A stretch of 64,000 nt of DNA from Candidatus Sulfopaludibacter sp. SbA3 (GTDB lineage Bacteria; Acidobacteriota; Vicinamibacteria; Vicinamibacterales; UBA2999). The stretch is from positions 62,001 through 126,000 of the forward strand of contig CAMDNQ010000002.1 of the NCBI GenBank assembly GCA_945903265.1, given 5' to 3'. Below the pieces are notes generated by a model. The model was given only the letters and a program-made list of their open reading frames with translations. It was not told where the DNA came from and searched no databases. The first letter of the stretch is position 1. Each line of letters opens with the position of its first letter. This document shows positions 1 through 36,601 of this stretch, piece by piece. The translations under genes were made by a program, and so were the position numbers.

Positions 1-89
1 TATTCAGCGGTGACGGAGTGATGCGCCGCCAGTGAACCGGCGCCGACGAGAACGACGCCGGCCAGTACCGCCCCGAGCTTCATTCCCAT
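1..89 (-). CDS. DUF6152 family exported protein, N-terminal fragment
   Basis: Only the first 29 codons are in the window; the gene runs off the left edge. The start at 89 is set by a GGAGG on the minus strand (about 95-100), five bases upstream. A second in-frame ATG lies two codons later. The visible part is a hydrophobic signal peptide followed by Ala-Ala-His-His-Ser. This is the same His-His immediately after the predicted cleavage site seen in the five complete DUF6152 genes of the window. Function is unknown. The family call rests on the signal plus His-His alone, because the diagnostic Asn-Pro-His region is beyond the edge. Confidence 0.6.
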   Translation of the reverse strand, partial: MGMKLGAVLAGVVLVGAGSLAAHHSVTAE

Positions 90-2810: not shown

Positions 2811-3614
2811 CTAGCGCGCTGCGGCTGGTTGCTCGACCTGGATTTCGTACTGGTTGTTCTCGATGCAGATGTATTCCATGATTTCGCTGCCCGGCTCGGC
2901 CAGCTTCGCGGTGTAGGTGACGGTGAACGGCTGCGTGAACGCGCCCGGGTCGGTGATCGTCACGTCGCGGCGGAGCGTATTGAAATCGGTCCGCGTCCAC
3001 CGTTCGACGAGATGCAGTTGCTCGGTGTGCGGCGTGCCCGCGCTGTCGAGCCAGAACCGGTTGTGGAGGCCGATCGTGTCGATCACGAGCGTCGCCCCCT
3101 CCCACCGGCCGATCGAGTGGCCGTACCACGTCGGGGTCGGATCCTCAGGATGCCTGCGGCCGTCCATGAAGATCTGCCGGTAGGTATGCGCGTTGCCTTC
3201 CTGCAGCATGAAGACGTGTGTGGCGTTCACGGTCGGATGCTGGACGAACCGCCACGCAAACCCACCGGTGATGCGCAGCGGCCCGCCGGGCATACAGTTG
3301 TTGTACGGGTCCTTGCTCTCGTCGCGCGAATCGTAGCGCGTCTGCGCCCACGGCAGCATGTTGGCCTTCAGCTCGCCGGGCTTGAGCAGCCCTTCGAGCG
3401 GCGCCGAGCCGCCATCGGTCCAGACGCCCGACAGATCGACGGTGCCGTCCGGCAGCGTCGGCACGGGACGGCCCGGCGCGTCGGCGGCCGCCGGCGGTCC
3501 ATTTGCGCCGCCGAGGCGCCGCGGAAGTTCCTGTGAGACAGCCGGCGCGGCGAGAATGACCGCCGCGATCGACGCGGCGAGGACTCGAGTCACGCGATGC
3601 CTCCTGCCGGCCAT
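2811..3614 (-). CDS. exported HTEQLH-family protein of unknown function
   Basis: 267 residues with a signal peptide to about residue 28. I do not recognise a characterised homologue. Family marks seen in several genes of this window are LPDGTVDLSGVW near residue 55, WYGHSIGRWEG with LVIDTIG in the middle, GTPHTEQLH followed by ERWTR, and an EYICIENNQYE tail. Clustered His, Glu and aromatic residues suggest a ligand or metal pocket, which is inference. The start codon overlaps the stop of the upstream DUF6152 gene by one base (TAATG), so translation is probably coupled. It is the last gene of the minus-strand run from 6480. Confidence 0.7.
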   Translation of the reverse strand: MAGRRHRVTRVLAASIAAVILAAPAVSQELPRRLGGANGPPAAADAPGRPVPTLPDGTVDLSGVWTDGGSAPLEGLLKPGELKANMLPWAQTRYDSRDESKDPYNNCMPGGPLRITGGFAWRFVQHPTVNATHVFMLQEGNAHTYRQIFMDGRRHPEDPTPTWYGHSIGRWEGATLVIDTIGLHNRFWLDSAGTPHTEQLHLVERWTRTDFNTLRRDVTITDPGAFTQPFTVTYTAKLAEPGSEIMEYICIENNQYEIQVEQPAAAR

Positions 3615-3994
3615 TACTGACCCGGCTTGCCGACGAACAGCTCACGGCCGTCGGCGGTCACCATCGAACTCGCGACGGCGTGCTCGAGCACCTTGCGCCC
3701 GCCGAACCCGCCGATCGTCACCTGGTCGCCGACCTGCAGCGTCTTACGCGTCCACCCTGCCCGCTCGAGCGCCAGCGTGCTCGCCATCTCGAAATTCCAG
3801 AGCGTCACCTTCCCGGTGCCGTCCTTGGCCTCGACATAGAAATGCGTGTGCGGATTGGTCCACTCCACCTTGACGATCGTGCCCTTGACGGTCACCGCCT
3901 TGCCGCCGTCGTACTCGGCGGTCCATGAATGATGGGCGCCGGCCGTGGCGGCCGCGAGGCCCACGGCGATCAGCGTCGCGTATGCCGTTCGCAT
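3614..3994 (-). CDS. DUF6152 family periplasmic protein
   Basis: 126 residues. Signal peptide about 1-19 ending Ala-Gly-Ala, so the mature chain is predicted to begin His-His-Ser-Trp. An Asn-Pro-His follows with the His at mature residue 29. A 'WNFEMAS' strand and an 'AGWTRKTL' segment come next, the usual small beta-barrel pattern of DUF6152. The function of the family is unknown. The His-His amino terminus plus the conserved third His could bind copper (see findings). The preceding gene, another DUF6152, ends nine bases upstream, and the next gene overlaps by one base. Confidence 0.8.
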   Translation of the reverse strand: MRTAYATLIAVGLAAATAGAHHSWTAEYDGGKAVTVKGTIVKVEWTNPHTHFYVEAKDGTGKVTLWNFEMASTLALERAGWTRKTLQVGDQVTIGGFGGRKVLEHAVASSMVTADGRELFVGKPGQ

Positions 3995-4003
3995 AGTTCG
4001 CGC

Positions 4004-4423
4004 TTACTGTCCGGGATATCCCTGCGACGCAGCCTCGGGCCCGCCCTGCACGAAGAGCGGCTTGTCGCGCGCGTCGAGCTTGGCAATCCTCGCGAGCGAC
4101 CCGCGGCTCTCCACGACCTTGCCCGCGTAGCCATCGAACACGACCTTCTCGCCCGGCACCAGGCTGCTGCGTCCCCACCCCTGGCGCTGCACCGAGTTGG
4201 GACTCGTCAGCTCCATGTTCCAGGTCGTGACGGCGCCCTTCGCGTCGGTCACGTCGATGTACACGCGCATGTGTGGATTGGTCCACGCCACCTGCTTGAC
4301 GACGCCTTCGAACGTCACCTTCTTCTTGGCGTCGTATTCGGTGTCGAACCCGTGATGCGCGAGCGCCGGCATGGTCGCGCTGAAGAGGACGGCCGCCGTC
4401 AGTATGCCGAATGTGCGTCTCAT
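4004..4423 (-). CDS. DUF6152 family periplasmic protein
   Basis: 139 residues. Signal peptide ends Ala-Leu-Ala, after which the mature chain starts His-His-Gly-Phe-Asp-Thr-Glu-Tyr-Asp. The Asn-Pro-His lies exactly at mature residues 27-29, as in the neighbouring copy. Later segments WNMELTS and QGWGRSSL match the family pattern. The C-terminus is extended by about 15 residues with no recognisable motif. It lies eight bases downstream of an HTEQLH-family gene and nine bases upstream of another DUF6152, in a same-strand run that is probably one transcript. Function unknown. Confidence 0.8.
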   Translation of the reverse strand: MRRTFGILTAAVLFSATMPALAHHGFDTEYDAKKKVTFEGVVKQVAWTNPHMRVYIDVTDAKGAVTTWNMELTSPNSVQRQGWGRSSLVPGEKVVFDGYAGKVVESRGSLARIAKLDARDKPLFVQGGPEAASQGYPGQ

Positions 4424-4431
4424 GCGCTCTC

Positions 4432-5262
4432 CTATTTATCCGGTTGCGCCGGCTGGAACCCGCCCGCGATGCCGTACTGGTTGTCCTCAAGGCAGATGAA
4501 TTCCATCAGGTCGAGGTCCGGGCGGATGTGCGTCGCCGTGAAGCGCAGCTGCACGGGACGCGAGTAGGCGCCCGGGTCGATCAGGGTGAAATCGTTGATC
4601 AGCGTGCCGAAGTTCGGACGCGAGAAGCGCTCAATCGTGTGGAGTTGCTCGGTGTGCGGCGTCCCGCGGCTGTCAAACCAGAACTTGTCGTTGTAGCCGA
4701 TCGTGTCGACGACGAGCGTGTCCTTCTCCCAGCGGCCGATGGAGTGGCCCCACCATGTGGGCACCGGATCCTTCGGATGGGGACGTCCGTCCATGTAGAT
4801 GACGCGGTGCGCGCCGGCGTCGCCCGTCTCGTGCAGCACGTAGATGTGGGTGAGCCCCTTCGGCGTGTAGCTCATGGCGAGCTTCCACGGGTACGGATTC
4901 ACGCGCGGGACCCCCATCGGGAGGCAGGCGGTATACGGCTCGTTCTCCGTCTTGCGCGAATCGCGGAGCTCCCTCGCCCACGGCAGGAGCGGCAGCTCGC
5001 CCGGTTTCAGTCCGCCGTCGCGCTCGATGTCCTGATTCGATCCGCCGCCGACCCACGGGCCCGTCAGGTCGATCGTGCCGTCCTGGAGGCGCGGGACCGG
5101 CTTCTTCGCGTCCTCGGGCGAAATCCGGGGCGTTCCTGGAATGATGTACGTGACGCGTTCCTGGGGGGCTGCGGTCTGCGGGGCGGCGGCCTGCGCGCCG
5201 GGGAATGCGTACGCCGCCAGCACCACGGAGCCCGACGCCAAGGCAAGGAGTCCAAGTTTCAT
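4432..5262 (-). CDS. exported HTEQLH-family protein of unknown function
   Basis: 276 residues from the ATG at 5262. The longer open frame upstream overlaps the preceding gene and lacks a signal, whereas this start gives a clean signal peptide MKLGLLALASG... to about residue 26. Motifs match its neighbours: LQDGTIDLTGPWVGGG, TWWGHSIGRWEKDTLVVDTI, then FWFDSRGTPHTEQLH and ERFSR, and a C-terminal EFICLEDNQYG. No characterised homologue is recognised. It is 13 bases downstream of a close paralogue (5276-6079), so the pair is probably a tandem duplication inside the operon. Confidence 0.7.
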   Translation of the reverse strand: MKLGLLALASGSVVLAAYAFPGAQAAAPQTAAPQERVTYIIPGTPRISPEDAKKPVPRLQDGTIDLTGPWVGGGSNQDIERDGGLKPGELPLLPWARELRDSRKTENEPYTACLPMGVPRVNPYPWKLAMSYTPKGLTHIYVLHETGDAGAHRVIYMDGRPHPKDPVPTWWGHSIGRWEKDTLVVDTIGYNDKFWFDSRGTPHTEQLHTIERFSRPNFGTLINDFTLIDPGAYSRPVQLRFTATHIRPDLDLMEFICLEDNQYGIAGGFQPAQPDK

Positions 5263-5275
5263 CACGCTGCGGTCC

Positions 5276-6079
5276 TCACTTCGCAAAGGGGTTCTGGTGG
5301 CCGCCGGCCACGCCGAACTGGTTGTTTTCCTGACAGATGTTCTCGATGATGTCGTCGTTGGGCGGGCTGAGCCGTGCGGTGAAGGTGACGGTGAACGGCC
5401 GTGAGAACGCACCCGGATCATCGATTGTCACTTCGTTCACCAGCGTCCCCATGTTGGTGCGCGTCCATCGCTCGATCGTGTGCAGCTGCTCCGTGTGTGG
5501 CGTGCCCTTCCGATCGAACCAGAACTTGTCGTTGTAGCCGCGCGTGTCGATGACGAGCGTGTCCTTCTCGTACCATCCGATCGAGTGCCCGAACCATGTC
5601 GGGTCAATCTCGGCAGGGTGCTTCCGGCCGTCCATGAAGACCTGTCTGTAGCTGTGGATGTTCCCCTCATGAAGGATGAAGAGGTGCGTCGGCTTCTTGT
5701 GTGTGTAGTTCTGCACGAAGCGGAACGGGTACGGCGTCGAACGCGGCACCCCCATCGGCAGGCACCAGAGATGCGGATCGTCGGTTTCGCGCTGTGCGCG
5801 CTCGGCCATGATCGCGACCGAGGCGGGAAGCAGCGGCAGCGTCTCGCCCTTCTTCAATCCCTGCGCGATGTCGTTGACCGGCCCGCCGCCGACCCAGATC
5901 CCGTCGCCGAGGTCGATGGTGCCATCCGGCAGCCGCGGCGGCGGCCCCGTGGGAGCCGGTGCCCGCCGTACCTCCTGGCCGAGCGCATTCACGGGACCAA
6001 GCGCGCCCTTCTCCTGAGCGACGAGGGGCACGATGCTGGCGGCGAGAGCGACCGCGACGAGGAGTCGACGCCCGGTCAT
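5276..6079 (-). CDS. exported HTEQLH-family protein of unknown function
   Basis: 267 residues with a signal peptide to about residue 22. Carries the complete family pattern: LPDGTIDLGDGIWVGGG, WFGHSIGWYEKDTLVIDTRG, FWFDRKGTPHTEQLH, ERWTR and NICQENNQFG. The ATG overlaps the upstream DUF6152 stop by four bases (ATGA), indicating translational coupling. Together with 4432-5262 and 2811-3614 it forms three family members interleaved with three DUF6152 genes. Role unknown; the co-occurrence suggests that the two protein types act together in the periplasm. Confidence 0.72.
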   Translation of the reverse strand: MTGRRLLVAVALAASIVPLVAQEKGALGPVNALGQEVRRAPAPTGPPPRLPDGTIDLGDGIWVGGGPVNDIAQGLKKGETLPLLPASVAIMAERAQRETDDPHLWCLPMGVPRSTPYPFRFVQNYTHKKPTHLFILHEGNIHSYRQVFMDGRKHPAEIDPTWFGHSIGWYEKDTLVIDTRGYNDKFWFDRKGTPHTEQLHTIERWTRTNMGTLVNEVTIDDPGAFSRPFTVTFTARLSPPNDDIIENICQENNQFGVAGGHQNPFAK

Positions 6080-6480
6080 TGGGGCGCTCCCGGACCATCG
6101 GTATCGTTTGCGGTGCCGGCGAACAGCGACCGCCCGTCGGCCACAATGACCGACCGCGCGTTGCCGCGTGTCGGCACCGCCTTACCCGAATAGCCTTCCA
6201 CGGTAACGGTGTCGCCGACCTTGAGCGTGCGGCTGGTCCACCCGTTGCGCACCAGCGCGCTGGGGCTGGCCAGTTCCATGTTCCAGGTCGTCACCTTCCC
6301 GTCCATCGTCACGTCGACGTAGAAGCGGACGTGAGGATTGGTCCACTCCATTTTCGAGACGACGCCCGTCACCTTGAATATGTTCTGCGGGTCGTATTCC
6401 GACGAGAAGCTGTGATGTGCGTCTACCGGGGCAACCGCAAGCAGCGCACACAGCGCCGCCATCCAGATCCACTGCTGCAT
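6076..6480 (-). CDS. DUF6152 family periplasmic protein
   Basis: 134 residues. The ATG at 6480 is preceded by GGGGAGGGGAT, an excellent ribosome-binding site eight bases away, so the 15-codon longer frame is rejected. The signal ends Val-Asp-Ala and the mature chain begins His-His-Ser-Phe-Ser-Ser-Glu-Tyr-Asp. Asn-Pro-His again falls at mature residues 27-29. WNMELAS and NGWTSRTL follow as in the family. First gene of the six-gene run (6480 to 2811) and 41 bases downstream of a TonB-dependent receptor, so it may be co-transcribed with the receptor. Function unknown. Confidence 0.8.
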   Translation of the reverse strand: MQQWIWMAALCALLAVAPVDAHHSFSSEYDPQNIFKVTGVVSKMEWTNPHVRFYVDVTMDGKVTTWNMELASPSALVRNGWTSRTLKVGDTVTVEGYSGKAVPTRGNARSVIVADGRSLFAGTANDTDGPGAPQ

Positions 6481-6521
6481 CGTGATCCCCTCCCCTACCC
6501 GTGTGGCGCCGATCATACCCG

Positions 6522-9500
6522 TCAAAAGCCGTATTTGATGCCGAACTGCAGAATCCGGGGGTCGCCCGTGTTCTCCTGAATCCGGCCGAACGTCCCGGCA
6601 TTGAAATTGACGCCTGGGTTGCCCCAGTTGAAGTGGTTTAGCAGGTTGAACGCCTCGAGCCGGAGCTCCACATTCTGCGTGGCTCCCAGGTCGATTAGCT
6701 TCGATAGCCCAAGGTCGATCGTCCAGAACGCCGGTCCGAGGATGCTGTTCCGCTGAAGGTCGCCGAAGGTCCCAAGGGCCGGCTGCGCGAACGCGCCCCG
6801 GTTCAGATAGGTACCCAGCGAGTCGCCGTAGATCTCATCGCTGACCTTGTTGACCCGCTGCTCCTGGAAGCGCTGGCCGTTGAGGGCGCGATCGCTGCCG
6901 GTCGTCACGTTCAGCCAGCTTCCCGAGCGCGCGTTGAAGATGCCAGAGATGCGCCAGTTCGACACGATGGCGCGCAGGGCGGCATTGGCGGCTTCCGGCG
7001 TCAGGTACCCCAGATTCAGATTGGCGAGGTGCCTCCGGTCCTGGTCGCAATAGCCGCGGTCCGCGTCGGGATCGTCGGGGTTTGTCGGCCCCTGCGCAAG
7101 CTGCGGGAACCCGCCCGTCGTGTTGTCGCCGAAGCACCGGCTGATCGTGTAGTTGGCGTTGAGGCTGATGCCGCTGGGCGACCGCCGGCGCATCGACAGC
7201 CGCAGGCCGCGATAGCTCTGCTCGCCGACACTCGTGTGCAGATCGAGGTTGCCGATGAGCGCCGCCGACGCGGGGTTCTGTCCCGACAGCGTGAGCCGGC
7301 GCCGCTGGTTCACGTTCGCGGCGGTACTGCAGACCAGGTAGCTGACGCCGTTGATCACGCAGGGCGCCGTGCCGAGGAACTCCGCGGGATTGAGCTGGAT
7401 CTGCATCCAGAGGCGATCGGTGTAGCTCCCCAGGTAACTCGCCGCCACGCCCCAGTCGGTGCCGATCTGCCGCTCCAGCGTGACGTTCCAGGACTGCACG
7501 CGCGGCGAATTGATGTCCGGATCGGTCGCGCCGTACGCGCCGAACGGAATGAACTGCACCTCGCGGCTCGTCAGGATCGGGTGTGGATCGCCCCCGAGGT
7601 GGCCATACGGATTGTCGAACCCTCCCGGGGGGTTCTCGAGGAGCGAGCGGTTGCCCCAGGGCGGCGACTGCGTGTTGATGTTGTGCCGCTCGGCGGTCGG
7701 AAAGTCATACGCGACGCCGTACGACGATCGCACCGCCGTGCGGCCGTCGCCGCCGACATCCCATGCGAGGCCGACGCGCGGCGAGAAGTTCAGCCACTGC
7801 CTGGTCAACCCCGTGTTGCCAGATGGGAAGCCGGAATCGCCCGGATAAATGAAGCCGGCGGGGGCATTGACGAAGACGCTACTGCGCGTATTGGTCCGGA
7901 AATTTTCCGGAATCCAGTTGTAGACCTGTGCGTTTTCGAGCTCCTGTCCCAGGAATGGCTCCCACCGCATGCCCGCATTGAGCGTCAGCCGGGACGAGAC
8001 GCGCCACGTATCCTGCGCATAGAGCCCGACGTACAGCATGTGCATCGGCATCTGCGCCGGCCCGCCGTGTTCGAGACGCGCCACGCGGCCGAGCATGAGG
8101 TCGGCGAGGCCAAGACCCGTCGCCTGGCCGTTGACGTTCCAGTCGCCGCCGGAGCGCGCGTGCGTGAGAAAGTCCATCTTCCAGTACGCGCCGTTGGCGC
8201 CGAGCGAAATCTGGTGGTTGCCGCGCACGAGCGACAGGTCGTCGCTCACCTGATACGTATTGGTGTTGAACCGGCCCGTCGTCGCCGTGCCGGCGGCGAT
8301 GTTGAACCCGCCGGTGACCGTGAGCACCATCTCGCCGGGCTGATAGCTGTACACGTTGGCGCCGAGGTCCTTCGGTGAGAACCATGCCGGACTGCTCCGG
8401 TCGATCGCCGTCCTGTTGAACGCGAAGCGGACTGAATTCACCATCGTGTTGCTGAAGACGACGGTGCTGCCGGCTGCAACGGACTGGGCAAGGTTATCCA
8501 GGCCCGGTGTGCCGGTCGTGAGCACGTTGCCGGGGTCCTGCGCGAACGGCGCCGGCTTCTGGTGAAACGTCATCATGTACCGGCCGAACAGCGAGTGGTT
8601 CTGGTTCAACTGGAAGTCGAGGCGCCCGACCGCCTGCCCTTCATCGCGGTCGTCCGACGTGGTGTACGTGATCTGCCCGCACGGGTCGGTCGTTGATGGC
8701 AGACGCCTCACCAGATTGAGCGCGGCCGGACTGAAGAGCGCCGGACTGATCTGGTTGCCCACAAACGGCGCGTTCAGCGTCACGTTTCGCCCCTGGCACG
8801 CGGTCGACGCGAACGCGGTGAAGTCGCCGGCGAGCATGGCCGGGGTCGGCACATACGCGATGTTGGCCGAGGGTTGCTGGCGCACGCGCGTGCCCTGATA
8901 GCCGCCGAAGAAGAACAGCCGATCGCGAACGATCGGTCCGCCGAGTGTCCCTCCGTACTGATGCCGGTTCAGGCCGTCGTCCACCCGCTTGGCGTCCGGA
9001 CCGGTGCGCGCGAACGGGTCGGTCGCGTTGAATCGGCGATCGCGCACGAACTCGAACAGGTTGCCGTGCACGCTGTTGGTCCCGGACCTCGTGACCGCGC
9101 TGACCGACGCTCCCGAGTGCATGCCGTTCTGCGCGCTGAGTCCGCTCGTCGCCACGCTGAACTCCTGCAGGGCATCGGGAAACGGCATCGGCAGGTTGGC
9201 GTTGTTCTGCGGGTTGTTGTGCATCGCGCCGTCGAGCAGGTAGGCCACGCCGAACGACAGCCCGCCGGCGACCGAAATGCTCACGCCGCCCTGCATGCTG
9301 CGGCTGTCAGATGTCGCGGTCTGCACCGCGGCGCCCGCCAGCACGATCAGGTCCGTGACCTGCCGGCCCTGGAGCGGGAGCTCGTGGACGTTCTGCACGA
9401 CGTCGCTGATGCCCGCGCTGCGGACGTCGATGATCGGCGCCGCCGCCTCGACCGAGACGGTTTCCTCGACACTGCCGACGGCCAGACTGGCGTTGAGGGT

Positions 9501-9809
9501 CGGCGTGGCCCCGACCTGCAGAATGATGCCCGTCTGGGCATACGAGCGGAAGCCCTGAAGCGATACCTCCAGCCGGTACGGGCCGGTGGGCATGTTGGGC
9601 ATCACCCAGCGGCCTTCGCCGTCGGTGACCGCCGTGCGCGACAACCCGGTCTCCGTCTGGGCTGCCGTGACGGTGACGCCCGGGAGGACGGCCCCGCTCT
9701 CGTCGGTGACGCGGCCAGCCAGCTCGCCGGTCGCCTGCGGGAATGCGGGCGAAGCCGTGAGCAGCACCAGGAAGACGCCGACGACAAGCCCGAAGGACCA
9801 ATGTCTCAT
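6522..9809 (-). CDS. Oar-like TonB-dependent outer-membrane receptor
   Basis: 1095 residues. Signal peptide (about 1-26), then a carboxypeptidase-regulatory-like Ig domain (GRVTDESGAVLPGVTVTA... about 30-110), a plug region (residues about 115-240, with LPLQGRQVTDL and YLLDGAMHNN), and a long beta-barrel ending in aromatic Phe, as expected for an outer-membrane barrel. Segments such as GGTLGGPIVRDRLFFFGGYQ are typical of the Oar/OmpA-related receptors abundant in Acidobacteriota. Function: energised uptake or binding of an unknown large ligand. GGAGG lies five bases upstream of the ATG. Downstream is the DUF6152/HTEQLH run, upstream a methyltransferase-like gene and a second receptor. Confidence 0.85.
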   Translation of the reverse strand: MRHWSFGLVVGVFLVLLTASPAFPQATGELAGRVTDESGAVLPGVTVTAAQTETGLSRTAVTDGEGRWVMPNMPTGPYRLEVSLQGFRSYAQTGIILQVGATPTLNASLAVGSVEETVSVEAAAPIIDVRSAGISDVVQNVHELPLQGRQVTDLIVLAGAAVQTATSDSRSMQGGVSISVAGGLSFGVAYLLDGAMHNNPQNNANLPMPFPDALQEFSVATSGLSAQNGMHSGASVSAVTRSGTNSVHGNLFEFVRDRRFNATDPFARTGPDAKRVDDGLNRHQYGGTLGGPIVRDRLFFFGGYQGTRVRQQPSANIAYVPTPAMLAGDFTAFASTACQGRNVTLNAPFVGNQISPALFSPAALNLVRRLPSTTDPCGQITYTTSDDRDEGQAVGRLDFQLNQNHSLFGRYMMTFHQKPAPFAQDPGNVLTTGTPGLDNLAQSVAAGSTVVFSNTMVNSVRFAFNRTAIDRSSPAWFSPKDLGANVYSYQPGEMVLTVTGGFNIAAGTATTGRFNTNTYQVSDDLSLVRGNHQISLGANGAYWKMDFLTHARSGGDWNVNGQATGLGLADLMLGRVARLEHGGPAQMPMHMLYVGLYAQDTWRVSSRLTLNAGMRWEPFLGQELENAQVYNWIPENFRTNTRSSVFVNAPAGFIYPGDSGFPSGNTGLTRQWLNFSPRVGLAWDVGGDGRTAVRSSYGVAYDFPTAERHNINTQSPPWGNRSLLENPPGGFDNPYGHLGGDPHPILTSREVQFIPFGAYGATDPDINSPRVQSWNVTLERQIGTDWGVAASYLGSYTDRLWMQIQLNPAEFLGTAPCVINGVSYLVCSTAANVNQRRRLTLSGQNPASAALIGNLDLHTSVGEQSYRGLRLSMRRRSPSGISLNANYTISRCFGDNTTGGFPQLAQGPTNPDDPDADRGYCDQDRRHLANLNLGYLTPEAANAALRAIVSNWRISGIFNARSGSWLNVTTGSDRALNGQRFQEQRVNKVSDEIYGDSLGTYLNRGAFAQPALGTFGDLQRNSILGPAFWTIDLGLSKLIDLGATQNVELRLEAFNLLNHFNWGNPGVNFNAGTFGRIQENTGDPRILQFGIKYGF

Positions 9810-31136: not shown

Positions 31137-32318
31137 ATGAGGGTCGGATCGAAGAGCATGCTCGGCGCGGCCGCAGGCATCGCCGTCGTGTGGATGGTGG
31201 CAGTCGCGTGCGTGAGCGCCCAGGCGCCGAAGCCGGCGGCCCCGGCAGCCGCCGCACCGGCGCAGGTTCCAGGATCGAATCAGCTGCTCGCCGAGAACGT
31301 CTTCAAGAACGTGACGGTGCTGCGCGGAATTCCCGTCGACGAGTTCATGGGGACGATGGGGGTCTTTTCGGCGGCGCTCGGCATCTCCTGCGAGGACTGC
31401 CACACCGCATCGTCCAATGACTGGGCCAATTACGCGACGGACACGAGCCCGCGAAAGATGATGGCGCGGCAAATGGTGGTCATGATGACCACGCTCAACA
31501 AACAGTTCTTTGGAGGACGGCAGGTGGTGACCTGCTATTCCTGCCATCGCGGCGCGCTGCGTCCCCGCGTCACGCCCAGCCTCGTCCAGTTGTATGCGTC
31601 GGTCTCGGCCGACGAGCTCGACGTCCTGCTCCCGCCCGCGCCGCCCGGCACGCCGACGCCGGCGCAGATTATCGAGAAGTACACGAAGGCCGTCGGAGCC
31701 AGCGCCGCAAAGCTTCGAAGCTATACGGTGAAGGGCTCCTACACCGGATACGGACCCGAAGGGTTTCCGCGTCCGTTTGAGCTGTACGCCAACGCGCCGA
31801 ACCAGAAAGCGCTGATCGTGCGCGACAACGAGGCGGGCGATTCGACCACGATCTTCAGCGGAACCGCCGGCTGGGTGTCTGCGCCATTCCGGCCCGTGGC
31901 GGTGCTCGAGCTGCACGGCGCCGAGCTGGATTCCGCGCGGGCCGACGCCGAGATGATGTTCCCCGTGAACGTCAACCTGAAGGCGCTGACGAACCTCCGA
32001 AGCAGCATCGATTTCATCAACGACCGCACGGTGCTTGCCGTCCAGGGCAACAAGGGGAACGCCCTCGTCACGATGTACTTCGACGAGGAGACGGGCCTCA
32101 TGACCCGGCTGGTCCGGTCGACGGGATCGCCGGTGGGCCGGCTGCCCGTGCAGACCGACTTCTCGGACTTCCGGGACGTGGCCGGCGTGAAGCTCCCGTT
32201 CAAGTGGACGACGACCTGGCTGGACGGGCGTGCGAACTATGAGGCGACCGAAATCCAGGCGAATGTGACGATTCCGGCCACCCGGTTTGCCCGGCCGGCG
32301 CCCGCGAAACCGTACTAG
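31137..32318 (+). CDS. di-haem cytochrome c resembling the reaction-centre cytochrome subunit, second paralogue
   Basis: 393 residues; GGAGG is four bases before the ATG. Signal peptide to about residue 29, an Ala/Pro-rich linker, then FKNVTVLRGIPVDEFMGTMG and haem motifs CEDCH (85-89) and CYSCH (133-137). The C-terminal 200 residues repeat the beta-rich domain of the protein at 1655, ending with the same 'FSDFRDVAGVKLPFKW' strand. Two-haem variant of a four-haem family, fused to a possible lipid-binding barrel. Divergent from the di-haem cytochrome at 30132 across 66 bp. Confidence 0.78.
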   Translation: MRVGSKSMLGAAAGIAVVWMVAVACVSAQAPKPAAPAAAAPAQVPGSNQLLAENVFKNVTVLRGIPVDEFMGTMGVFSAALGISCEDCHTASSNDWANYATDTSPRKMMARQMVVMMTTLNKQFFGGRQVVTCYSCHRGALRPRVTPSLVQLYASVSADELDVLLPPAPPGTPTPAQIIEKYTKAVGASAAKLRSYTVKGSYTGYGPEGFPRPFELYANAPNQKALIVRDNEAGDSTTIFSGTAGWVSAPFRPVAVLELHGAELDSARADAEMMFPVNVNLKALTNLRSSIDFINDRTVLAVQGNKGNALVTMYFDEETGLMTRLVRSTGSPVGRLPVQTDFSDFRDVAGVKLPFKWTTTWLDGRANYEATEIQANVTIPATRFARPAPAKPY

Positions 32319-32384: not shown

Positions 32385-32804
32385 ATGAAAAAGAGCGCAT
32401 TATTCGCAGTTTCTTTCGCAATTGCATCGCTGGCCCTCGCGGGTGGCGCGGTGGCGCACCACGGTGACGCCGGCCGCTATATCGAGGAGGTCGTCGAGCT
32501 GAACGGCACAGTCGTCGAGACCCAGCTGGTCAACCCCCACTCCATCCTGGTCGTCGACGTCGACACGAACGGCAAGATGGTGCGGTGGCAGGCGGAGATG
32601 GGCGGCGCCCAGCAGTTGATCCGCAGCGGGTGGACGGTGGACGTAAAGCCGGGCACCAAGGTGACCCTGACGGGCCGTCGCCTCAAGAGTGGCGCTCCGT
32701 ATATGAACCTCACCGAGCGCGCGCGCGTCGTGCTGGCGGACGGCGGCAAAGTCGTTCACCAGACCGCGAACTTCGGGCAGCCGGCGGCGACTGCCGCTCC
32801 GTAA
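32385..32804 (+). CDS. DUF6152 family periplasmic protein, divergent copy
   Basis: 139 residues from the ATG at 32385, which follows GGAGG by nine bases. Signal ends Ala-Val-Ala and the mature chain begins His-His-Gly-Asp. Asn-Pro-His is present with the His at mature residue 28 rather than 29. The WQAEMGG and SGWTVDVK segments follow. It lacks the Glu-Tyr-Asp after the His pair found in three other copies and is the only complete copy not beside an HTEQLH-family gene. It is followed by a strong intrinsic terminator. Function unknown. Confidence 0.75.
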   Translation: MKKSALFAVSFAIASLALAGGAVAHHGDAGRYIEEVVELNGTVVETQLVNPHSILVVDVDTNGKMVRWQAEMGGAQQLIRSGWTVDVKPGTKVTLTGRRLKSGAPYMNLTERARVVLADGGKVVHQTANFGQPAATAAP

Positions 32805-34448: not shown

Positions 34449-35198
34449 TTATTTATTCTTCGCGGCCTCGAGAAACGGCGCGCATTCGTACTCGAGCAGC
34501 TGCGCGTTCGGCTCGACGTCCCGATAGAGCGTCATCCGCATCTTCCACGGACGGCTGAAGACTTCTTTGTCTTCGATCGTCGCCTCATAGAGCATGTGGT
34601 CCGGACCGGTACGCGTGTACCGCTCGACCACGTGCATCGCCGGGCTGTGAAAGTTGCCCGATCGATCCAGCCACGTCTGGTCGGTGAAATGGACGACGTC
34701 CACCACCAGCGTCTCACCTTCCCACTTCGCGCGGGAGTCCCCGTTGTACCAGGCGATGCCCTCGGGCGGATGCTGGCCGGTCAGGCGGATGTTGCGGATG
34801 GTATGGGCGTATTCCGACACCATCACGATCTGATCGCGTGACTGGAAGATTTGAAACGGGTACGGCATGTAGACGATGCGCGGCACGCCGACCATCGCGC
34901 AGCGCGCCTCGTTGTCCTGCGTCGCGCGGTTTTTCAGGTTCGCCATGCGCTGCTTCAGCGCGGCGGGCAGGTAGGGCAACTCGTTGCCGTCAACGATCCC
35001 CTGCCCCGCCGGGATGCCCGGCTCCGCACTGTGATCCTGAATGTTCCAGACGGCGGTGTTCATCGCCTTCCAGATGCCCTGCAGGTCGGGATGGCCGTCC
35101 GGGGTGCGCGGCGCCTGAAAGGGTGTCTGCGCGAAGGCGATGCCTTGAAGGATCGCCGCAGCCGCCAGCGTGCAGATGACACGTCGCGTCATGATCAT
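34449..35198 (-). CDS. exported HTEQLH-family protein, diverged copy
   Basis: 249 residues, signal peptide to about residue 23. Keeps the family frame: TPDGHPDLQGIWKAMN, KWEGETLVVDVVHF, TWLDRSGNFHSPAMH and ERYTR. The His-Thr-Glu-Gln-Leu-His motif has become His-Ser-Pro-Ala-Met-His, retaining both His. The start overlaps the stop of the upstream DUF6152 gene by four bases (ATGA). Third gene of a tightly coupled operon, 36513 to 34449. Function unknown. Confidence 0.68.
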   Translation of the reverse strand: MIMTRRVICTLAAAAILQGIAFAQTPFQAPRTPDGHPDLQGIWKAMNTAVWNIQDHSAEPGIPAGQGIVDGNELPYLPAALKQRMANLKNRATQDNEARCAMVGVPRIVYMPYPFQIFQSRDQIVMVSEYAHTIRNIRLTGQHPPEGIAWYNGDSRAKWEGETLVVDVVHFTDQTWLDRSGNFHSPAMHVVERYTRTGPDHMLYEATIEDKEVFSRPWKMRMTLYRDVEPNAQLLEYECAPFLEAAKNK

Positions 35199-35587
35199 CG
35201 TCCCGGCGCCGAGCCGGCGAAGAGCGTCCGGCCGTCGGCCAGCTTCACGTCGGTGGCCCCGAGAATCCGCGACCCGTCGCGCGAGACGTAGCCGCTCACC
35301 GTGACGCTTGCACCGATCGGGAGATCTTCACGGCGCCATCCGCGGCGGTAGAGGGCGTTGGCGGATCCGAATTCAATCGACCACTGCGCCACCTGCCCGC
35401 TCGCGTCTTTCCCCTCGAGGTAGAGCCACGCGTGCGGGTTCTTGAACTCCATCCTGGTGATCGTCCCGACGACGGTGTTCGTTTTGTCGAGATGAAACTG
35501 CGCGGCGATCGAGTGGTGCGCGTTCACCGGCAGGTAGGCAGCGCTGACCAGCAGCGCCACGGTCACGGTCAGCAGTCGAACGTTCAT
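35195..35587 (-). CDS. DUF6152 family periplasmic protein
   Basis: 130 residues. Signal ends Val-Asn-Ala and the mature chain begins His-His-Ser-Ile-Ala-Ala-Gln-Phe-His, with a third His at position 9. Asn-Pro-His is at mature residues 27-29. WSIEFGS and RGWRREDL follow as in the family. Both ends overlap neighbours by four bases (ATGA upstream and downstream), so it is sandwiched between two HTEQLH-family genes. This is the tightest evidence for a joint function. Confidence 0.8.
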   Translation of the reverse strand: MNVRLLTVTVALLVSAAYLPVNAHHSIAAQFHLDKTNTVVGTITRMEFKNPHAWLYLEGKDASGQVAQWSIEFGSANALYRRGWRREDLPIGASVTVSGYVSRDGSRILGATDVKLADGRTLFAGSAPGR

Positions 35588-36513
35588 CGCGCGCCTCCCT
35601 TGTCAAACGCCTGGCGCAGCGCCCTCGCTTCGGCGCCGGTGATGCCCGGGTACGTCTGGTATCCGATCTTCCGGAAGTGTCCCATACTCTCGGTGTTGTC
35701 CTCGTAGCACGCCTCTTCCCACAACTCGACGTTCGCCGCCGCATTCCGCCGAAGCGCGACCGCAATGGTGAAGGGACGCGTGTAGACATTCGGGTCGTCG
35801 ATCGTCGCCTGGTAGTGCATGGTCCCGGCGTCGAGCATCGTGAAGCGCTCGGTCACGCGCGCTTCGTCGGTATAGAAACGGCCGCGCTGATCGAGGAAGA
35901 TCTGCGCGCGCTGATTCGTCGTGTCCACCACGAGCGTATTGCCCTCCCAGCGTCCGCGCGAATCACCCTGCCACAGCTTGATGTCGCCCCCGACGTGCGG
36001 ACGCGGGTTCAGCGGAATGATGCGCACCGCGTGCGACTCTTCCGACTGAATGAGCAGGTGGTCGCCCGTCTGCGTAAGCTGGAACAGGCCCGTCATGTAC
36101 ATCGTGGTGGGGACGCCCGAAAGAAAGCACGCCGCGTTGTGGTGCAGAAATTTCTGCGCATTCTCCTTCGCCCGCGCGACCGCCCACGGCTGCATCGGCA
36201 CCAGTCCATCGGCCGGATCGACGACGGCGCTCGACGCGCCCGCGTCGTCTGCGGTCTTCGGATGCGCCTGCAGGTCCTCATGCGCCGCGGCGCGGCGCCG
36301 CCAGAGACCGCTCAGATCCGGATGGCCGGCAGCCGTCTTCGGCGGCGTAAAGGCGGTCAGGCGCGCGGTGGCGCACGCATGGAACGCCGCGTGGTTGTCG
36401 TCCGCGCACACCGACGTCGTCACATAGTTCTGTCCGCTGACAGTGACCGGAACGAGCAGGCAGGCGAGGGTCGCCGCTGCTGCGCCCGCGACCGCGAATC
36501 GAAGTCTGTGCAC
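35584..36513 (-). CDS. exported HTEQLH-family protein, strongly diverged copy
   Basis: 309 residues from the GTG at 36513, which has GGAG eight bases upstream and yields a signal peptide; the upstream ATG frame has none. Family features: HPDLSGLWRRR, GRWEGNTLVVDTTN and IFLDQRGRFYTDEARVTERFT. The HTEQLH motif has become Tyr-Thr-Asp-Glu-Ala-Arg, losing both His, so any metal or catalytic role may be lost here. Extra cysteines after the signal (VCADDNHAAFHACAT) could form a disulphide. First gene of the three-gene operon. Confidence 0.68.
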   Translation of the reverse strand: MHRLRFAVAGAAAATLACLLVPVTVSGQNYVTTSVCADDNHAAFHACATARLTAFTPPKTAAGHPDLSGLWRRRAAAHEDLQAHPKTADDAGASSAVVDPADGLVPMQPWAVARAKENAQKFLHHNAACFLSGVPTTMYMTGLFQLTQTGDHLLIQSEESHAVRIIPLNPRPHVGGDIKLWQGDSRGRWEGNTLVVDTTNQRAQIFLDQRGRFYTDEARVTERFTMLDAGTMHYQATIDDPNVYTRPFTIAVALRRNAAANVELWEEACYEDNTESMGHFRKIGYQTYPGITGAEARALRQAFDKGGAR

Positions 36514-36572
36514 CTGAAATTCTCCCTGTGTGAACACCGTAACACGAGCCGGGGATACGGCTGTGCGGCGCG

Positions 36573-36601
36573 TTGACACGCCTCTGTGGGTCGCCTATTG
36601 T
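36573..36601 (+). promoter_or_regulatory. consensus sigma-70 promoter
   Basis: TTGACA (36573-36578), a 17-bp spacer and TATTGT (36596-36601). This is the best promoter match I saw in the window. It lies 22 bp before the start at 36624 and should drive the propeller/monohaem gene and the following PHP-like gene. Confidence 0.72.

Follow-up and report, generated by a model that had tools for sequence, protein, structure and literature searches.

Metal sites built around an N-terminal histidine are of a known kind. In Bacillus subtilis, the CopC domain of the membrane protein YcnJ exchanges Cu(II) with YcnI, an N-terminal-histidine protein (PMC8424229, PMC12362106); the CopD domain is taken as a copper importer, and the CopD family is associated with copper import (PMC8424229). 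A survey of “signal-strapping” proteins discarded candidates with a second ligand at position 2, so that families that start with His-His are easy to miss, and it does not mention DUF6152 (PMC12537917). Neither DUF6152 nor DUF6644 was found to be mentioned in the literature that we searched, and the DUF6152 family, its OB fold and the link between DUF6644 and CopD are absent from it.

We analyzed DUF6152 starting from a stretch of 64,000 nt of contig CAMDNQ010000002.1 of Candidatus Sulfopaludibacter sp. SbA3, here called “the window”, and extended the analysis to the whole genome and to further loci and genomes.

DUF6152 genes of the window and their neighbors

The DUF6152 genes and their neighbors are listed in Table 1. 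All five complete copies match PF19649 (64.5-99.5 bits, cut-off 27), and the sixth, cut by the window edge at 1-89, is present as a whole in the genome (L011; G000:C2:61778-62050). A sequence-only reading of the window had claimed that the mature proteins start with His-His after a typical A-x-A site. In all six copies the pair indeed lies directly behind the signal peptidase site, whereas the strict A-x-A is confined to three of them (AGA, ALA, AVA); the other three have V or L at -3 (VDA, VNA, LAA), which also fits signal peptidase I. The copy at 32385 has the histidine of an Asn-Pro-His (NPH) motif at mature residue 28 and the other four complete copies have it at 29, as the sequence-only reading had stated; also confirmed was the Glu-Tyr-Asp at 7-9 shared by the copies at 3614, 4004 and 6076, which is also found in the sixth copy (HHSVTAEYD). 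The start of the gene at 6076 is more likely the internal ATG (MQQWIW) than the upstream TTG.

Most of these genes lie next to genes for a secreted protein that we call LSGVW after the motif of its family, which no Pfam or NCBIfam model names despite its high abundance. Overlaps are frequent: the start of the LSGVW gene at 2811 overlaps the stop of the DUF6152 gene at 3614, the LSGVW genes at 5276 and 34449 overlap the stops of the DUF6152 genes at 6076 and 35195, respectively, and the LSGVW gene at 35584 overlaps the start of the DUF6152 gene at 35195. The region from 9809 to 2811 (minus strand) is apparently a single operon with the order TonB-type receptor, DUF6152, LSGVW, LSGVW, DUF6152, DUF6152, LSGVW. 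The receptor gene, apparently the first of the operon, overlaps the start of the DUF6152 gene at 6076, which suggests that it is cotranscribed with the DUF6152 and LSGVW genes.

Table 1. Features of the window, with the evidence for each assignment (positions in nt; NPH His, position of the NPH histidine in the mature protein)
Feature	Position	Strand	Basis
DUF6152 gene, N-terminal part, cut by window edge	1..89	-	sequence (SLAA/HHSVTAEY; slash, cleavage site)
LSGVW family secreted protein	2811..3614	-	own HMM match 4e-122; no Pfam/NCBIfam match
DUF6152; mature HHSWTAEYD, NPH His at 29	3614..3994	-	PF19649 84.8 bits; AF2 of mature form
DUF6152; mature HHGFDTEYD, NPH His at 29	4004..4423	-	PF19649 91.4 bits
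LSGVW family secreted protein	4432..5271	-	own HMM; start inferred within longer ORF 4432-5421
LSGVW family secreted protein	5276..6079	-	own HMM; AF2 model of mature part
DUF6152; mature HHSFSSEYD, NPH His at 29	6076..6525	-	PF19649 87.6 bits
TonB-dependent-receptor-type outer membrane protein, CarboxypepD_reg domain	6522..9809	-	PF25183, PF13620, PF00593
DUF6152; mature HHGDAGRYI, NPH His at 28	32385..32804	+	PF19649 64.5 bits
LSGVW family secreted protein	34449..35198	-	own HMM
DUF6152; mature HHSIAAQFH, NPH His at 29	35195..35587	-	PF19649 99.5 bits
LSGVW family secreted protein	35584..36579	-	own HMM

The sequence-only reading had also named a cupredoxin and cytochromes as neighbors. The c-type cytochromes were found, but none of the 18 scanned window genes other than DUF6152 encodes a cupredoxin. 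Two window genes (1655-2782 and 31137-32318) match PF02276, the photosynthetic reaction-centre cytochrome c family, and the former also has a DUF6544-like C-terminal part.

Conserved histidines and predicted fold

His-His and a Pro-His at 27-30 are present in each of the 92 non-identical DUF6152 proteins that were extracted. Because the PF19649 model covers the His-His region, we built a second model from the part of DUF6152 downstream of the NPH motif, which is thus blind to the N-terminus, and used it to search 14 whole genomes and to re-score all collected loci. His-His occupies mature residues 1-2 in 305 of the 306 distinct domains that were retrieved; the sole exception is an ORF cut by a locus edge, so that the fraction is 305/305 for complete domains. 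An artefact of the Pfam model is thereby ruled out, and the conservation of the pair claimed from the window copies extends to every complete member. A third histidine is found at 27-31 in all 305 complete domains, as Pro-His in 304 and as Asn-His in one (L068). For the window’s own genome this search gave 45 matches, compared with 43 otherwise; the two extra matches are weak.

The histidine pair is directly preceded by a signal peptidase motif, with Ala (299), Gly (4) or Ser (2) at -1 in the 305 complete domains, and a home-made signal-peptide predictor called cleavage at His-His for 70 of the 92 proteins. Judged by motif and predictor, the first residue of the mature protein, which has to be His in a histidine brace, is His in 305/305 cases. 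For comparison, among 362 other frames with signal-peptide-like starts from the window and the loci, seven have His at +1 and none has His-His, while His is at +1 in 2.6% of the signal-peptide proteins of the SignalP 6 training set (PMC12537917). Chance is excluded by these values.

In an alignment of 77 sequences with a mean identity of 33%, only H1, H2, P28 and H29 are invariant; Gly18, Trp46, Gly60 and Gly69 are nearly as conserved. The invariant residues are also retained (AHHGWSWAE; PPH or NPH) by proteobacterial DUF6152 proteins that share about 30% identity with an Acidobacteriota copy.

The mature 3614 protein was modelled with AlphaFold2 together with 76 relatives, resulting in a predicted OB fold (pLDDT 92.9, pTM 0.84) with strands at 8-24, 31-37 and 43-49, a helix at 53-58, and strands at 71-79 and 85-93, i.e. 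in OB order. The best structural matches of the model are the OB-fold protein PriB and SSB proteins (Z 9.5, rmsd 2.4, 81 residues); CusF is absent among the fold matches listed. Neither the DUF6152 nor the LSGVW alignment retrieved a relative from the PDB sequences.

Mean-field direct coupling analysis (DCA; 304 sequences, Neff 214, near-invariant columns dropped) recovered all five strands, with the pairs b1-b2, b2-b3, b1-b4, b4-b5 and parallel b3-b5, and OB pairings made up 16 of the top 40 pairs, compared with a background of 5.5%. The five-stranded barrel of order 1-2-3-5-4-1 that defines an OB fold is thus found in the AlphaFold2 secondary structure, the PriB match and the covariation. 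In a first DCA run, couplings among invariant columns (1-28, 1-29 etc.) had appeared, which were pseudocount artefacts; these columns were dropped later.

Residues 3-8 couple with 79-88 (7-87 in 40 of 40 bootstraps, 3-80 in 38, 5-79 in 28) and with 31 and 33 (8-31 in 37 of 40, 3-33 in 21), and residue 30 couples with 80. The N-terminus and the loop of H29 would therefore face each other across the cleft between loops L12 and L45, which is a common binding site for ligands or proteins in OB folds. The covariation supports a convergence of the N-terminus and the H29 loop in the sense of proximity, not of a distance. Conservation, cleavage motif and covariation proximity are all in agreement with the N-terminal-histidine metal site that the sequence-only reading had proposed.

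Partner families and copy numbers

In Paracoccus, Azospirillum, Comamonas and Sinorhizobium, the DUF6152 gene is followed by a DUF6644 gene (DUF2214 in one of the annotations) that overlaps it or lies within a few bases. In the window’s own genome the two genes are side by side at two loci (L071, L059), and at a third (L388) DUF6152 is followed by two DUF6644 genes; a tandem pair of DUF6644 beside DUF6152 is often observed (G000:C13:32876-33331, G000:C3:49554-50435, G000:C4:108721-109592). The window itself yielded no DUF6644.

The small membrane protein DUF6644 has three invariant residues, His, Gly and Lys. Its profile matches CopD with 91.4% probability and a score of 44 over 98 columns, compared with 3.2-3.4% and a score of 20 for reversed controls. 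No DUF6644 sequence exceeds the cut-off of the CopD model PF05425 (32.1 bits), and one protein (G019:C37:1939-2205) matches both the DUF6644 model and, below this cut-off, PF05425 (23.9 bits). DUF6644 thus appears, from its profile, to be a distant relative of CopD. No CopD was detected in the own genome, and no plain copper genes were present among the predicted frames around its DUF6644 loci. With its likeness to CopD, the partner points to copper, though without proving it, and to trafficking more than to catalysis.

The partner in the window’s lineage is LSGVW. In the named genome set it was located no more than 1.5 kb from DUF6152 in 83 of 91 cases, and in two loci (L002, L139) it appears to be fused to DUF6152, with one open frame that holds both domains. 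The same 15 of 21 genomes carry both families (Fisher p 1.8e-5, phylogeny ignored), and their copy numbers are correlated (Spearman 0.95; 0.87 among carriers). The AlphaFold2 model of the mature 5276 protein (pLDDT 89.4) has mostly FABP/CRBP proteins as top matches, with middling values (Z 7.7-8.3, rmsd 3.3-4.1), and Foldseek alone gave nothing at E<=0.001. The predicted fold resembles a calycin barrel of the fatty-acid-binding type.

The own genome contains 43 DUF6152 copies in 3.5 Mb, and relatives have up to 86. The family is present in 39 of 297 genomes of the phylum, and it also occurs on plasmid records of Sphingomonadales, Rhodobacterales, Rhodospirillales, Hyphomicrobiales and Burkholderiales. 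For LSGVW, we counted 49 genes in the own genome and up to 115 in relatives.

Possible roles and comparison with known systems

A metal site is the best explanation for a free amine and invariant imidazoles that covariation places close together. In the reading that we regard as fairly probable, DUF6152 is an OB-fold metal protein with an N-terminal histidine, probably for Cu(II), that captures its ion and hands it over in the manner of CopC or YcnI. Signal peptidase I would free the N-terminal His-His of the small exported protein, and the amine and side chain of His1, possibly His2, and the (N)PH histidine, carried by the loop that connects strands 1 and 2, would form a putative, histidine-brace-like site in the barrel's L12/L45 cleft. 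The ion, most likely Cu(II), would be captured or held outside the cytoplasm and passed to a partner, which in the wider family would be the CopD-like DUF6644. We infer the metal and its exact ligands, as well as metal binding and hand-over themselves, from these data.

In Acidobacteriota, DUF6152 has multiplied to tens of copies, usually together with the secreted, calycin-like LSGVW, and the two (in the window also with the TonB-type receptor) would probably constitute modules for the uptake or processing of particular ligands. Carriage of copper alone hardly accounts for tens of copies in one genome, and the many paralogues with a partner of the ligand-binding type are what fits a simple copper carrier worst. 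The main way in which the carrier reading could be wrong is an enzyme or chelate-uptake role in this phylum.

The same N-terminal site might serve nickel, zinc, cobalt or iron in a sequesterer or transporter, which we consider unlikely. The N-terminal-histidine families DUF4198 and DUF6702 prefer nickel, and the model of PaDUF6702 has His1, His28 and His32, spaced much as in DUF6152 (PMC12537917); in addition, genes for iron or siderophore transport lie near the Azospirillum and Comamonas DUF6152 loci. A metal other than copper is disfavored by the kinship of the partner DUF6644 with CopD, whose family has been associated with the import of copper (PMC8424229).

Rather improbable is a copper enzyme in Acidobacteriota, i.e. 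a small, LPMO-like oxygenase or peroxygenase that would act on a ligand held by LSGVW and receive electrons from the neighboring c-type cytochromes. The large co-expansion of the two families, their fusions, the calycin-like model of LSGVW and the cytochromes in the window are compatible with such an enzyme. However, the calycin match is middling (Z ~8), oxidase or peroxidase activity is weak or absent in DUF4198 and DUF6702 (PMC12537917), no observation points to a substrate or a reductase, and in the wider family the place of LSGVW is taken by a CopD-like partner. Of the copper-redox histidine brace that the sequence-only reading had envisaged, the metal site formed by the N-terminal and a second histidine is supported, while the redox chemistry based on cytochromes is weaker than trafficking, because the tight partner outside the Acidobacteriota lineage is the CopD-like DUF6644 and not a redox enzyme. 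A more far-reaching version, and a decidedly speculative one, is that DUF6152 represents a new OB-fold class of copper proteins with an N-terminal tri-histidine site, and that each Acidobacteriota module of DUF6152 and a calycin-like protein acts on a different small molecule or metal-ligand complex that enters through a TonB-type receptor of its own, possibly as a copper oxygenase.

A structural role of the invariant residues, or one as an epitope for protein binding, with no metal in vivo, is very improbable: the use of the L12/L45 cleft by OB folds in general, the turn shaped by Pro-His and the near-invariance of Gly18, Trp46, Gly60 and Gly69 would suit it, but a histidine pair strictly kept at the cleavage site of very divergent proteins would be unexpected of a folding motif, and three invariant imidazoles together with a free amine are the signature of a metal site.

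With the carrier reading, an unnamed family becomes a testable candidate metalloprotein family, with named putative ligand residues and a named membrane partner that is itself near CopD. To our knowledge, the OB fold would be a new scaffold for an N-terminal-histidine metal site. CusF is also a small periplasmic OB-fold metal protein; however, its Cu(I) site of His, Met, Met and Trp is inside the barrel and not at the N-terminus, and no Pfam match connects the two families. LPMOs and PmoB have an N-terminal and a further histidine as copper ligands, as the putative site of DUF6152 would, but have other folds, a much longer spacing and demonstrated copper enzyme chemistry, and the five complete window copies gave no Pfam match to LPMO families at E<=1.

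DUF6702 and DUF4198 are, like DUF6152, exported domains of unknown function with a conserved N-terminal histidine, and the modelled three-histidine set of DUF6702 resembles that of DUF6152 (PMC12537917). In contrast to DUF6152, they have beta-sandwich folds and a preference for nickel, only 65% and 79% of their members, respectively, have the N-terminal histidine (305/305 for DUF6152), and a histidine at position 2 is not reported as a feature (PMC12537917).

The closest likeness in function would be to copper carriers. CopC/PcoC proteins have a periplasmic Cu(II) site with an N-terminal histidine and a CopD partner; their fold differs from that of DUF6152, the partner of which is only distantly related to CopD, and the CopC family model gave no Pfam match at E<=1 with the five complete window copies. 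The DUF1775 (YcnI) model likewise gave no match at E<=1 for the window copies. Nevertheless, YcnI of B. subtilis is, like DUF6152, exported and encoded next to a CopD-type membrane protein (YcnJ, CopC-CopD), chelates Cu(II) with its free N-terminal histidine and belongs to a family with a conserved Trp (PMC8424229, PMC12362106). The two differ in that YcnI has a cupredoxin fold and a mono-histidine brace of His, Glu and a nearby Trp, whereas DUF6152 combines a predicted OB fold with an N-terminal His-His and the (N)PH histidine.
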